Shown piece after piece: positions 1,633 to 5,575 of a stretch of 64,000 bases of DNA. The notes beneath the pieces are model-generated. The model saw nothing but the letters and a program-made list of their open reading frames with translations. It searched no databases and had not been told where the DNA came from. Source of the stretch: Nodosilinea sp. FACHB-131. GTDB lineage: Bacteria; Cyanobacteriota; Cyanobacteriia; Phormidesmidales; Phormidesmidaceae. The stretch is taken from NCBI RefSeq assembly GCF_014695395.1, contig NZ_JACJOF010000028.1, positions 1 to 64,000 of the forward strand, read 5' to 3'. The stretch's first letter is position 1, and the number at the start of each line of letters is the position of its first letter. Both the position numbers and the translations under genes were made by a program.

Positions 1633-1839
1633 TTAGGTCATAATTACCGCAATGATGATGGCAGCCAGCGCCACAATCACGGCTGCCAGTAAAATGCCAG
1701 CGGCAATGTTGCCCCGACGGATTTCGGTTTGGTAGTCGATGGGGTCGAGGAGATCGAACAGCCGCACTCCACCGTAAAACAGGAGCACGGCAAGGAATGT
1801 CCACCCGACTGTGGCAAGGGCATCCTGAATAATGGGCAC
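1633..1839 (-). CDS. DUF350-like small membrane protein
   Basis: A 68-residue protein with two transmembrane segments (about residues 8-28 and 45-66) joined by a short charged loop. The segment RRGNIAAGILLAAVIVALA is typical of the DUF350 fold, present here as a single half unit. It starts at a GTG (1839) preceded by TAGGAG at good spacing; no upstream ATG fits. Its function is unknown. DUF350 proteins (E. coli YjfL) often lie beside polyamine-metabolism and DUF4178-type genes, and here the divergent operon contains a membrane spermidine synthase and a DUF4178 protein. It therefore probably belongs to the same envelope system. That link is inferred from context only. Confidence 0.75.
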   Translation of the reverse strand: MPIIQDALATVGWTFLAVLLFYGGVRLFDLLDPIDYQTEIRRGNIAAGILLAAVIVALAAIIIAVIMT

Positions 1840-1930
1840 GGGTGCAAGCTCCTAAAAAAATTTCCCCTAGCCTACCGAATTGCTTGGTCTAGCAACGACC
1901 TAGTGAAGAATATTAAAGCCTAGTGGGCAA

Positions 1931-1957
1931 TTGTCTCTCAAATTGCGAGGGTATAAT
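1931..1957 (+). promoter_or_regulatory. Candidate sigma70 promoter for the polyamine/membrane operon
   Basis: A perfect TATAAT (-10, 1952-1957) is preceded by TTGTCT (1931-1936) with a short 15-bp spacer. It lies about 120 bp upstream of the ATG at 2074. The -10 is convincing; the -35 is weak. Confidence 0.5.
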
Positions 1958-2073
1958 TTGAGTCCTTCCAATTTCATCTATTTTGATTGAGGCAATTCTT
2001 TAGAAGACAATGCCCAAACCTAAACAGAGCCTAAGCTGGGCAATCAGCGACGGACTAAAGGGTATGCGCGTTC

Positions 2074-3078
2074 ATGCCCAGTAAGATTCAACCGTTGGTG
2101 ACAACGCAATTTACTGAGCGATCGCCGTTGATGGCGCTAGGGGCTCTGGGACTGTTGGGGATAGCGTTGCTGATCGCTCCTTTTTTTCGCCGTCAGCTGT
2201 TGAGTACTGGTGTCTACGTGGGGCCAGAAGAGACGGTTCAATTGGACCCGGTGCAGCCCCGCAAAGGGGCAATTGGAGCATTGCGAATCGATGTCGAAGC
2301 CCAATTGCCTAGCAATGCCTGGAGCGTGTTTGAAGTGCAGGTGCTTGACAGCCAAGGCAATGTGCTGGCCTCAGCCATTAAGCAAGTGTGGAATGAGTCG
2401 GGCACCTGGCAAGAGGAGGGAGAATCGGGCGTCTGGCAGGAGCAGGACCAGGCTGGGCGGTTTGATATTCGGCAGGCCGCGATCGATGGGCCGGTGGTAG
2501 TGGCGATTTCGGTGCTGGAGCAGGGCAGCAGTACCGGGCAGCCCCTAGATAGTCCTGTGGTCTATCGCGTCACGGTGGCGGAGGGCGTGATCGACCACCG
2601 GTTTTTGTGGAGTGGGGCAATTGGGGTATTGCTAGTGGCGGCTTTGACAACGATTGCCGTCAAAGCCGCCGGGCAAACCGTCATAAGTGAGCAGATCAAC
2701 GATAGCGATTTGGTGGGGCGCGGCACTCTGGGCGGTCCCAATACACTGCTGCGGGTGATCATTACTGTGGTCTCCGATGAAACCTCGCCCTCCAAGCTGA
2801 CCGCTAATCTCGCCATCAACGACAGCTACGGCGAGTCTGTATACCGCCGTGAGGTGGTCATACCGCTGTCGATTCGGCGAGAGGAGGGCAAGGTGGAGAG
2901 TGCCAGGGGCTCCGCCAGCGTCGATCTAATTTTGGACCCCAGGGGCTCCTACGGGTTCTCGGTCGCCATTACCCCCGATGGCCCAGTCGATCACACCTTT
3001 TTGACGGTGAAGGAGGGCATTCGCACCCTCACTCCCACCGCGATTACCTACATTCAGCCCTCGACGGAACCTGCCTAA
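2074..3078 (+). CDS. Two-TM protein of unknown function, first gene of SpeE operon
   Basis: I do not recognise a named family. The 334-residue protein has a hydrophobic segment near residues 20-37, then about 135 residues of beta-rich sequence (IDVEAQLP, FEVQVLD, VVYRVTVAEG). A second TM lies near 178-198 and a second beta-rich stretch follows to the C-terminus. Two beta-sandwich-like domains facing the same side of the membrane would fit. Its stop codon overlaps the next start (TAATG), so translation is coupled to the 76-aa gene and then to the spermidine synthase. Context suggests an accessory of a membrane-bound polyamine enzyme; this is inference. Confidence 0.72.
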   Translation: MPSKIQPLVTTQFTERSPLMALGALGLLGIALLIAPFFRRQLLSTGVYVGPEETVQLDPVQPRKGAIGALRIDVEAQLPSNAWSVFEVQVLDSQGNVLASAIKQVWNESGTWQEEGESGVWQEQDQAGRFDIRQAAIDGPVVVAISVLEQGSSTGQPLDSPVVYRVTVAEGVIDHRFLWSGAIGVLLVAALTTIAVKAAGQTVISEQINDSDLVGRGTLGGPNTLLRVIITVVSDETSPSKLTANLAINDSYGESVYRREVVIPLSIRREEGKVESARGSASVDLILDPRGSYGFSVAITPDGPVDHTFLTVKEGIRTLTPTAITYIQPSTEPA

Positions 3079-3308
3079 TGTTGCCAAAACTCGCTGCCCT
3101 GGGTGCCTTTGCGATCGCGATTTTGGCGATCGTCGGTAGCTACGGCCAAATGTCGGCGCTGCGATTGGGGCAGCAGAGCCAGCCGCTATATTGGCCGCAC
3201 CGCAGCACCCGTCTGTCTGGCCTGCGCACCAACAATACCTGGAAGCCCTCGCCCAACCGCAGCGCCTACGAGGGCTTCCAGGGGGGAGGCATCGGAGTCG
3301 GTAAGTGA
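3078..3308 (+). CDS. Small membrane-anchored protein, operon-coupled
   Basis: A 76-residue protein with one N-terminal hydrophobic helix (about residues 5-22, LAALGAFAIAILAIVGSYG), followed by a polar tail rich in Arg, Ser and Gly that ends in GFQGGGIGVGK. The ATG overlaps the stop of the upstream gene, and its own TGA overlaps the GTG of the spermidine synthase. Both junctions are classic coupling geometries, which is the main evidence that this short frame is real. No family is recognised. It may be an assembly or regulatory peptide for the membrane enzyme. Confidence 0.65.
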   Translation: MLPKLAALGAFAIAILAIVGSYGQMSALRLGQQSQPLYWPHRSTRLSGLRTNNTWKPSPNRSAYEGFQGGGIGVGK

Positions 3309-4846
3309 CTGCCACCCCCCTCACTCCGCACCAAGTGCGCTGGCTACTGGCGGCGGCAGCGGTGTCGTCGAGCTGTGCCCTGGCGGCAGAGCTACTGCTG
3401 GGTACTCTGGCCAGTTACCTGGTCGGCAACCAAGCGCTAGCTTACGGGGTGGCGATCGGGGGTTTTTTAGCCGCGATGGGGCTAGGGGCCTACCTGAGCC
3501 GCTTTATTGCCCCCGAAGCTTCCTCAGACCGGGTGCAGACCGTTTTGCTGACCCGTTTTTTTCAGGTGGAGCTGCTGGTCGCTCCGCTGACGGCCCTGCT
3601 GCCCCTGGGGTTGTTTGCCCTCTTTGCCGTAGATGGTCCCCTGTGGCTAGGGCTGCTGCTGGCCGCGCTGCTGCTGGGCGTGCTGGCCGGCATCGAGGTG
3701 CCCCTGCTGACCCGACTGATCGAGCTCGACACCGGGGTGCGAGAGGCGCTAGCGAAGGTACTGGCCCTAGACTATGTCGGCGCGCTGGTGGGTTCTCTGC
3801 TGTTTCCGGTTTTGCTGCTGCCGCTGCTGGGGCTGTTTCCCTCGGCGGTGCTAATTGGGGCGGCCCCGGCCTGGATGGTGTACGGCATGGGAGGCAGTTT
3901 TCCGCAGATGCGTCCCTGGCGACGGCGAGGGCTGGGGGTGGGGCTAGCGCTGCTGCTGTTTACGCCCCTGGCTCTGCCCCTGAGCAACCAGCTCGAAAAT
4001 AGCCTCTACGCAGCTCCGATCATCAATCGGCAGCAGTCGCCCTACCAACGCATTGTGCTGACTCGGTTTGGGCCAGATGTAAGGCTGTTTCTCAATGGCG
4101 ACTTGCAGATGTCTACCCTAGACGAGTACCGCTACCACGAGTCTTTGGTGCATCCGGCCCTGGCGACCCAGGTCAATCCTCAGCGCATTTTGCTGTTGGG
4201 GGCCGGCGATGGTATGGCTCTACGGGAAATTCTCAAATGGCCGCAGCTAGAATCGGTGCTGGTGATTGAGCTAGATGCGCAACTGCTGGAGCTGGCACGG
4301 CGCTACCCGGCCCTGGCCCTAGCCAATGGCCACGCCTTTGACGACCCCCGAGTGACGGTGCGCTACGGCGATGCTTTTAAGCTGGTGGCGGCCCTCGACC
4401 AAACCTTTGATGTGATTGTGGCGGATTTTCCTGACCCGGATGTGGATGCGATCGCCAAACTCTACAGCCTGGGGTTTTACCAGCAAATTCGCCAGCACCT
4501 CAGCCCGGCGGGGGTCTTTGTCACCCAAGCCTCCAGCCCGTTTTTTGCCCCTAAAGCCTTCGCCTGCATCGCCACCACCCTAGCCGCCGCCGCCTTCAAA
4601 ACCTACCCCTATACCGTCAGCGTGCCCAGCTTTGGCCCCTGGGGGTTTGTGCTGGCCAGCCAAGTCGAGCTTGCCCCAGCAACGCTGACTTTGCCTGTAG
4701 TCACTCGTTTTCTCACGCCTCAACTGCTGCCAACGCTGTTTGTGTTGCCGGGGGACATTCGCCTCGATGCCGTGCAGGTCAATCGACTCAGTCACCCGGT
4801 AATTGTGCGCTACCAAAATGACCCTCGATGGACTTTATATGATTGA
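3305..4846 (+). CDS. speE: Membrane-anchored spermidine synthase (polyamine aminopropyltransferase)
   Basis: 513 residues in two parts. Residues 1 to about 225 are very hydrophobic, with about six or seven TM segments. Residues 240-480 form a spermidine-synthase Rossmann domain. Visible motifs are DEYRYHE (about 273-279), GAGDG (about 299-303, the GGGDG nucleotide motif), VIELDAQ (acidic ribose ligand) and DFPDPD (about 374-379, the catalytic gate corresponding to DxxDP). Soluble SpeE transfers an aminopropyl group from decarboxylated SAM to putrescine; the acceptor of this membrane form is unproven. It starts at a GTG overlapping the upstream TGA. No SpeD gene is seen in the window, so the donor could differ. 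Confidence 0.88.
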   Translation: MTATPLTPHQVRWLLAAAAVSSSCALAAELLLGTLASYLVGNQALAYGVAIGGFLAAMGLGAYLSRFIAPEASSDRVQTVLLTRFFQVELLVAPLTALLPLGLFALFAVDGPLWLGLLLAALLLGVLAGIEVPLLTRLIELDTGVREALAKVLALDYVGALVGSLLFPVLLLPLLGLFPSAVLIGAAPAWMVYGMGGSFPQMRPWRRRGLGVGLALLLFTPLALPLSNQLENSLYAAPIINRQQSPYQRIVLTRFGPDVRLFLNGDLQMSTLDEYRYHESLVHPALATQVNPQRILLLGAGDGMALREILKWPQLESVLVIELDAQLLELARRYPALALANGHAFDDPRVTVRYGDAFKLVAALDQTFDVIVADFPDPDVDAIAKLYSLGFYQQIRQHLSPAGVFVTQASSPFFAPKAFACIATTLAAAAFKTYPYTVSVPSFGPWGFVLASQVELAPATLTLPVVTRFLTPQLLPTLFVLPGDIRLDAVQVNRLSHPVIVRYQNDPRWTLYD

Positions 4847-4981
4847 GCTAAGTTTGAGGTGCGCGACTAAACCGCCAGGGTTGAACGCTCAATCTCCTTA
4901 GCGGGCGAACCTTTGAGTATTTGCTCCAGTCCCCGAGTCCTTTTTAATTCTAAGTTGCCAAATGTGTAGGGCGTTGTCGTC

Positions 4982-5575
4982 ATGTCTCTCTCTGTTCTAT
5001 GGATTCTCATTTTTCTAGTTCTTCTGGTGGCGGCGGCAGGACTGTGGTGGTCTGCTCAGCGGCGATCGCTGCCCACCCGAGAGACCTCTCGCCACCTAAC
5101 TGACCAGCCCTCCGTGTTTGAGCTACAAATTGGCGATATTGTGCAGCACATGGGCCAAGACTGGGTAGTGGAAGGCAAGCTGATTTACCAGGAGGGAGGT
5201 TTCTCTTGGCTAGAGTACATGCTGCAAGATGGTGACGAGATTCGCTGGCTGGCCGTCGAAGAAGACGACTGGGTGACGGTGGCGCTGCTGGCTCCAGTTA
5301 ACTCTTTAGAGGTCAGCGCTGCGCCCCCACAGGAATTGGTCTACAACGGCGACACCTACCACCGCCGAGAAACAGGCCTGGCTACCATGCGCCGCGAGGG
5401 TAACCCCCGTCGTCCCGAGGCGGAAACCTGCCGCTATTTTGACTACGAAGGCCCCGATCAAAAAGTGCTGTCAGTTGAAGATTGGGACGGCAACCTGGAG
5501 GTCACAGCGGGTGTCGTCATTGCACCGCGATCGCTCGTCATTTTGCCCGGCGAAGGGCGCAGTGTTTACCAATAA
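4982..5575 (+). CDS. DUF4178 domain protein with N-terminal membrane anchor
   Basis: 197 residues. An N-terminal TM (about 3-22) is followed by a beta-rich domain with the DUF4178 pattern: LQIGDIVQHMGQDWVVEGKL, then WLEYMLQDGDEIRWLAVEEDD and later YNGDTYHRRETG. DUF4178 is uncharacterised but recurs next to DUF350 and polyamine aminopropyltransferase genes in many bacteria. The gene lies 135 bp after speE on the same strand, so it may have its own promoter or be read through. A structural or regulatory partner of the membrane SpeE is the likeliest role. Confidence 0.78.
   Translation: MSLSVLWILIFLVLLVAAAGLWWSAQRRSLPTRETSRHLTDQPSVFELQIGDIVQHMGQDWVVEGKLIYQEGGFSWLEYMLQDGDEIRWLAVEEDDWVTVALLAPVNSLEVSAAPPQELVYNGDTYHRRETGLATMRREGNPRRPEAETCRYFDYEGPDQKVLSVEDWDGNLEVTAGVVIAPRSLVILPGEGRSVYQ

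Follow-up and report, generated by a model that had tools for sequence, protein, structure and literature searches.

Fusions resembling a transporter of the major facilitator superfamily (MFS) and a spermidine synthase (SpdSyn), linked to S-adenosylmethionine decarboxylase (AdoMetDC) and accompanied by DUF350 proteins, were reportedly described by Li and colleagues in 2019 as probably aminopropylating a substrate other than putrescine; the fusion is said not to complement a deletion of spermidine synthase, and its acceptor to have been left unidentified. The acceptor of such membrane fusions of spermidine synthase (SpeE) has apparently been a standing question since 2019, and none is named in the passages considered here of Ravi et al. 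2024 (PMC11237479), which describe an operon coding for a 7TM-spermine synthase fusion, a DUF350 protein, a lipoprotein and a DUF4178 protein and which suggest, citing Li 2019, that the polyamine level or the 'aminopropylation of other substrates' feeds membrane dynamics. A cluster of this already published type is located at positions 1633-5575 of a 64,000-nucleotide (nt) stretch of the genome of the cyanobacterium Nodosilinea sp. FACHB-131 (contig NZ_JACJOF010000028.1, positions 1 to 64,000; in the following referred to as the window). It consists of genes for a DUF350 protein, a protein with two transmembrane (TM) segments, a peptide of 76 amino acids (aa), a SpeE with seven TM helices (7-TM SpeE) and a DUF4178 protein, and what the present analysis adds to the printed record is a candidate acceptor, namely the peptide, which ends in lysine.

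In comparison with the operon of Ravi et al. 2024, as described in those passages, the window has the 7-TM SpeE fusion, DUF350, DUF4178 and the envelope setting in common, but its DUF350 protein is of half length and a PspA or chaperone partner is missing from the cluster; neither the Lys-ended peptide nor the two-TM protein with its beta domains is described there as such, and one of the two may correspond to the lipoprotein (Ctha_1186). Scanning the five cluster proteins and the products of the two following genes with profiles revealed no CesT/Tir-PspA dyad. Two PspA_IM30 matches exceed the cut-off in the genome (contigs C26 and C2), and in another locus (L036) PspA is present together with an open reading frame (ORF) containing a DnaJ domain. 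The fusions reportedly described in 2019 likewise combine a membrane region with SpeE, whereas the AdoMetDC of the window genome is encoded elsewhere, in a SpeD-SpeE fusion. The original prediction, which was made from the sequence of the window and assumed a genuine five-gene cluster with overlapping genes, DUF4178 after them and DUF350 opposite, is borne out by the ORF and profile scans, which confirmed all five ORFs.

The peptide gene (3078..3308, forward strand) codes for an N-terminally anchored product with a Gly-rich tail, ...GGGIGVGK, whose last residue, K76, is encoded by the AAG codon at 3303..3305 of the same strand, followed by TGA at 3306-3308 as read from the sequence; it shares 1 nt with the preceding gene for the two-TM protein and overlaps by 4 nt with the gene for the 7-TM SpeE (3305..4846, forward strand, 513 aa; NF002956, E = 6.6e-161; PF01564, E = 5.3e-37). 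A family scan with the peptide returned a single weak match (0.41), which is below the cut-off. Given the conserved C-terminal Lys, the peptide appears to be the best candidate target of the enzyme, and the probability that the side chain of this residue is aminopropylated by a dedicated envelope system is, in our estimate, about one half. The peptide would be held by its N-terminal helix and would present a flexible Gly-rich tail with the final Lys on the outer side of the membrane (lumen or periplasm), where the 7-TM SpeE would transfer the aminopropyl group of decarboxylated S-adenosylmethionine (dcSAM) to the side-chain amine. The butylamine arm of Lys resembles putrescine, and the reaction would yield a tail that resembles spermidine and is anchored in the membrane. 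In this scheme Arg276 of SpeE might bind the carboxylate of the Lys, the two-TM protein and DUF350 may be membrane partners serving as a scaffold or in the handling of donor or substrate, and DUF4178 may be the cytoplasmic partner. The aminopropylation of a membrane-associated envelope target, as originally predicted, fits these data and its core idea is already in print, but that prediction had treated the peptide merely as a membrane protein of unknown function. A limited literature search found no paper joining an aminopropyltransferase with a C-terminal lysine.

The reading is supported by the persistence of the terminal Lys. M1, G48, W55, F67, G69, G71 and K76 are invariant in 11 orthologs of the peptide, and when the neighbours of SpeE are compared side by side, the positional equivalents end in Lys despite differing bodies, e.g., with ...RGLSGGK in L036, ...GPSHK in Novosphingobium and ...SSGK in a long Alteromonas lipoprotein. 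The terminal-Lys idea was set down as a hypothesis first, and further loci were examined afterwards. A scan of 386 genomes gave 35 with a match to the membrane SpeE family (E <= 1e-60), of which G022, G068 and G325 match with the catalytic part only; this leaves 32 genomes of the phylum with a 7-TM SpeE, including two partial matches (G060, G371). Of these 32, 31 encode a small anchored peptide with a terminal Lys: in 27 genomes it belongs to the SpeE cluster, and in four (G004, G018, G147, G365) it is located next to DUF350 at another site; in G147 the search for it was prompted by the finding of an isolated SpeE. Such a peptide is also found in six of six genome-contig loci, one of which (L005) is a near copy of the window, and in ten out of the eleven plasmid loci whose SpeE is of the 7-TM type (three from Novosphingobium, three from Burkholderia, two from Tritonibacter and one each from Ensifer, Alteromonas and Gemmatirosa), the counterpart in Alteromonas being a lipoprotein of 510 aa. 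The plasmid loci are a sample for which 11 of 58 listed records were opened, three of them not 7-TM forms, with three more loci coming from other searches. The DUF350 contigs of three genomes in which no 7-TM SpeE was found (G016, G032, G035) contain no such peptide, two of these contigs being short (5.9 and 3.6 kb).

As the 47 Lys peptides collected were picked for ending in K, the sole unselected count is a control comprising every ORF of 40-110 aa with one TM segment in 58 loci, irrespective of its end. Here, 44 of the 66 ORFs adjacent to the cluster end in Lys, in contrast to only 10 of the 157 non-adjacent ones (p = 1.4e-20, Fisher's exact test, uncorrected for shared ancestry), and 43 of the 58 loci have at least one adjacent Lys-ended small ORF. 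The 44 include a second ORF of L059 that is probably spurious, and the filter overlooked peptides that exist in L032, L033 and L075. That the terminal Lys results from an overlap with the start codon of the following gene was ruled out: 31 of the 47 peptides use AAA and 16 use AAG, all three stop codons follow, and 30 have no overlapping start codon at all, so that gene overlap does not force the residue. Since blastp joins 40 of the 47, probably via Gly/Ser-rich stretches, and leaves 5 groups, many independent peptide families are not claimed.

A conserved terminal Lys could also be explained without its modification. SpeE might aminopropylate some other envelope molecule, such as a lipid or a small membrane amine, with the Lys peptide as a subunit whose tail gates the enzyme or docks to it as a substrate mimic, a scenario we consider unlikely though worth keeping in mind. 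The peptide is small in all clusters but one of those in which it was found, its gene overlaps that of SpeE in the window, a Lys fitting the acceptor site could equally serve as a plug, and such operons have been tied to membrane dynamics in the passages of Ravi et al. 2024 (PMC11237479). However, it is not apparent why a plug should have to sit at the very end of peptides that differ so much, and L044, the long lipoprotein form, better matches a carrier.

With respect to the enzyme itself, the window SpeE passes the cut-off of the polyamine aminopropyltransferase family NF002956 / PRK03612 (536.2 bits vs 472) and misses that of the fused MFS/spermidine synthases, NF037959 (37 bits vs 40). Its TM region comprises residues 8-232 and the catalytic domain begins at about residue 239, in line with an AlphaFold2 (AF2) model showing seven helices N-terminal to the catalytic domain (mean predicted local distance difference test score, pLDDT, 76; predicted template modelling score, pTM, 0.56). 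Active-site residues of spermidine synthases are a Tyr-His-Glu motif and a pair of Asp residues, and when aligned with the SpeE of E. coli and the canonical SpeE of its own genome, the window enzyme keeps both, as RYHE and as Asp-x-x-Asp-Pro (ADFPDP), respectively, and is thus likely to be active. The Arg preceding the Tyr, which in the window is Arg276 in DEYRYHE (codon 4130..4132, forward strand) and is the candidate carboxylate clamp, marks the 7-TM enzymes: it is present as DExRYHE in 48 of 48 SpeEs of this type compared, defined as having at least five predicted TM segments ahead of the motif. Where readable, the 7-TM forms furthermore have D[FL]PDP and [VI]P[ST]FGxWG. Canonical SpeE shares the catalytic fold and the Asp pair with the window enzyme but is soluble, and the two canonical SpeEs compared, from E. 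coli and the window genome, have I or A in place of the Arg and lack D[FL]PDP and [VI]PSFGxWG, the corresponding stretches being SSDPVGP/CTDPIGP and IPTY.

I or A at the Arg position is likewise found in L078 and in a soluble form of SpeE from five loci (L034, L035, L037, L039, L077), here termed variant C, which also lacks the second Asp and has no accompanying peptide; that peptide, Arg and second Asp are missing together was counted in favour of the peptide as acceptor. The variant C clusters contain an 8-TM-type DUF350, an AdoMetDC nearby, a FemAB-family neighbour in L034, and DUF4178 in L034, L035, L037 and L039. Small anchored ORFs ending in K do occur in these clusters and were rejected, as they have the appearance of fragments of larger ORFs or of frames without relation to the peptide. 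The variant C SpeE ends in a C-terminal TM-like tail, and in G022, G054, G068 and G072 it is the sole PF01564 match counted.

The window genome has, in addition, the separate SpeD-SpeE fusion, located near an arginase-family gene, which can cover the spermidine supply; therefore spermidine need not depend on the membrane SpeE, and the possibility that this enzyme makes only soluble spermidine, named in the original prediction as a refutation, has become less likely. It would be quite improbable, then, for the 7-TM SpeE to be an ordinary synthase of spermidine or another free polyamine that is held in the membrane beside a separate stress module: its catalytic domain, which has retained the Asp pair, matches spermidine synthases, but the motifs differ from those of the two canonical enzymes, the SpeD-SpeE fusion is encoded elsewhere in the genome, and the related fusions reportedly fail to complement a spermidine synthase deletion.

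Modification of the peptide tail requires that tail and catalytic domain reside on the same side of the membrane. With the helix cores delimited manually on the window SpeE, the number of Lys + Arg in 12 diverse SpeEs is on average 2.0 in the N-terminal tail and 0, 1.67, 0, 3.08, 0.33 and 2.25 in the successive loops, which according to the positive-inside rule and the helix count suggests that the N-terminus is inside and the SpeE domain outside. The peptides in turn look like anchors with the N-terminus in and the tail out; a pattern match assigns a lipobox to that of L050, and by eye a Cys can be recognized close to the helix end in several others. Tail and SpeE domain are thus predicted on the same outer side, which supports the peptide as acceptor.

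Enzymes attaching polyamines by another chemistry offer a comparison. YjfC and YgiC of E. coli are named peptide-spermidine ligases in RefSeq, in agreement with the claim in the title of Pederick et al. 2023 (doi 10.1021/acs.biochem.2c00592). The E. coli cluster yjfIJKLMC resembles the SpeE operons in having DUF350 and PspA-type neighbours, and ygiBC in having a DUF1190 protein with a Gly-rich tail beside a polyamine-attaching enzyme; both, however, combine an ATP-grasp ligase with GG tails, where the window has SpeE and a GK tail, the GG criterion being our own observation. Ten ligase partners were checked, two from E. coli and eight from 158 plasmid records: seven end in GG and one in CCG, the two next to more remote ligases have other ends, and none ends in K. 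Most of these lipoprotein partners have a Gly-rich C-terminal tail, and seven of the ten, six with GG and the one with CCG, are DUF1190 proteins by annotation or Pfam; the Arthrobacter partner, which ends in GG, is not counted among these seven. Ligase-type operons with Gly-tailed lipoprotein partners were counted in favour of tail modification.

Several observations weigh against aminopropylation of the peptide. First, the window genome has one copy of an ATP-grasp GSP_synth gene, on contig C22, and the DUF1190 lipoprotein encoded beside it (the pair at L118:3057-5174) ends in ...TGTGGK, so that C-terminal Lys residues also occur outside SpeE clusters; a strict rule, by which SpeE partners end in K and ligase partners in GG, had to be dropped for this reason. 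Second, no peptide was detected in G115 around its 7-TM SpeE or its DUF350, the whole genome having been searched with a model of the window-type peptide only, and G010 has the order DUF4178-peptide-DUF350 (L031) with no 7-TM-type frame among the PF01564 matches listed; G010 is also missing from the membrane SpeE matches of the 386 genomes, its assembly being fragmented. Third, the counts are not independent, as the peptides have Gly-rich tails in common and may be related to each other. Fourth, RYHE is carried by seven soluble SpeEs on viral contigs (L093-L099), retrieved with a pattern set that itself contained RYHE. They belong to 12 loci found by scanning viral contigs with the SpeE alignment, of which the four annotated ones (L091, L092, L093, L102) code for a soluble SpeE with no DUF350 or DUF4178 match and so added no clusters to the set; the other eight were inspected for the SpeE motif only, with L100 left out. 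Fifth, the 25 residues past TM7 hold on average 3.0 Lys + Arg and 3.2 Asp + Glu, which blunts the charge argument, and the AF2 models are single-chain and of moderate quality. Finally, dcSAM is made in the cytoplasm, and an outside-facing SpeE domain would need a donor route; we know of no route for dcSAM to the outside.

The GGK lipoprotein is either a second substrate of SpeE or its Lys serves another enzyme; a plasmid search with it gave no match. Together with the GSP_synth gene itself, it speaks for the rather unlikely explanation that the C-terminal Lys of the peptide is modified by another enzyme, e.g., a GSP_synth-type ATP-grasp ligase encoded elsewhere, with SpeE just supplying the polyamine. 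The other ligases have mostly GG-ended and no K-ended partners among the ten checked, though, and GSP_synth is not among the five cluster proteins, whereas the peptide accompanies the 7-TM SpeE almost throughout the phylum genomes as described above.

The conservation of the neighbourhood, proposed as a check in the original prediction, was determined in a sample of 146 genomes of the cyanobacterial phylum, with statistics uncorrected for ancestry. DUF350, counted at E <= 0.001, was found in 21 genomes, of which G005 and G027, with weak matches located in very long frames, were dropped; 14 genomes have both DUF350 and DUF4178, 2 only DUF4178, 5 only DUF350 and 125 neither (p = 1.1e-13, Fisher's exact test). 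DUF4178 is thus present in 16 genomes, compared to PF01564 in 114 and AdoMet_dc in 116, the latter in all 16 with DUF4178 and in 100 of the 130 others. A SpeE domain lies close to DUF4178 in 13 of the 16, and the remaining three (G004, G010, G018) have DUF4178-peptide-DUF350 with no SpeE nearby. An association of DUF350, DUF4178 and SpeE beyond chance is therefore strongly supported, and the lack of such conservation, which the original prediction had named as a refutation, is not what the genomes show.

Further genes accompany the cluster in places. In eight loci (L030, L041, L042, L043, L045, L046, L050, L081) the 7-TM SpeE occurs with an SPFH (band 7) protein, DUF4178 and an FAD amine-oxidase-like gene, L042 having an annotated speD in addition. 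In L032 (9315-11735), DUF350 is followed by an ORF of 806 aa with a peptidase S49 (SppA-like) domain, and L031, L033 and L111 have ORFs of 809-839 aa at the corresponding position, the domain scan having covered L032 only. In G060 (L027:4916-9330), where the SpeE gene is broken by an ORF of 390 aa and the two-TM gene is likewise split, the peptide and DUF4178 have retained open frames.

As to the remaining genes of the cluster and its surroundings, psbC, as judged by eye from the ORF, lies directly upstream, and the nearest among six loci found is that of Phormidium tenue FACHB-1052 (95% identity in SpeE). DUF350 is encoded on the strand opposite to the other four genes (1633..1839, reverse strand; PF03994, E = 2e-11) as a half-length form of 68 aa with two TM segments, its match spanning only profile positions 4-66 of 133 and being the sole DUF350 match in the genome. 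The DUF4178 gene (4982..5575, forward strand; PF13785, E = 3.7e-38) follows SpeE after a gap of 135 bp and codes for 197 aa with one N-terminal TM segment according to hydropathy. The two-TM protein of 334 aa (2074..3078, forward strand) had no match in a Pfam scan. It has one beta domain between its TM segments (residues 40-172) and a second beyond TM2, and W106, E108, G110, W112, E114, G116, E117, S118 and G119 are invariant across seven orthologs. In its AF2 model (pLDDT 76, pTM 0.45) the first domain resembles GOLD-type beta sandwiches (VIA-align, Z 10.4, root mean square deviation 2.5, 93 residues aligned), a common arrangement from which no function is drawn, and a Foldseek search of the PDB returned nothing more specific than generic beta sandwiches, at low TM-scores. 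The C-terminal domain of the DUF4178 protein of L042 (5229-6491) resembles, by eye, the beta domain of the 334-aa protein, and relatives of this DUF4178 protein have weak phmmer links to a two-TM protein of 200 aa in L036.

Beyond the window, it is a plausible if still tentative extension that this represents a widespread modification, in which an extracytoplasmic 7-TM SpeE homologue builds N6-aminopropyl-lysine at the C-terminus of dedicated anchored peptides, as a second, ATP-grasp-independent route to polyamine-tailed envelope proteins. The question of the acceptor is narrowed to one mass-spectrometry experiment by the presence of a dedicated peptide in the neighbourhood whose C-terminal Lys is fixed. 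If true, this would be a new modification of a C-terminal residue, it would account for the presence of polyamine enzymes in DUF350/DUF4178 operons even of organisms in which another part of the genome can provide for spermidine synthesis, and SpeE-type and ligase-type operons would form one class of envelope-tail modification.

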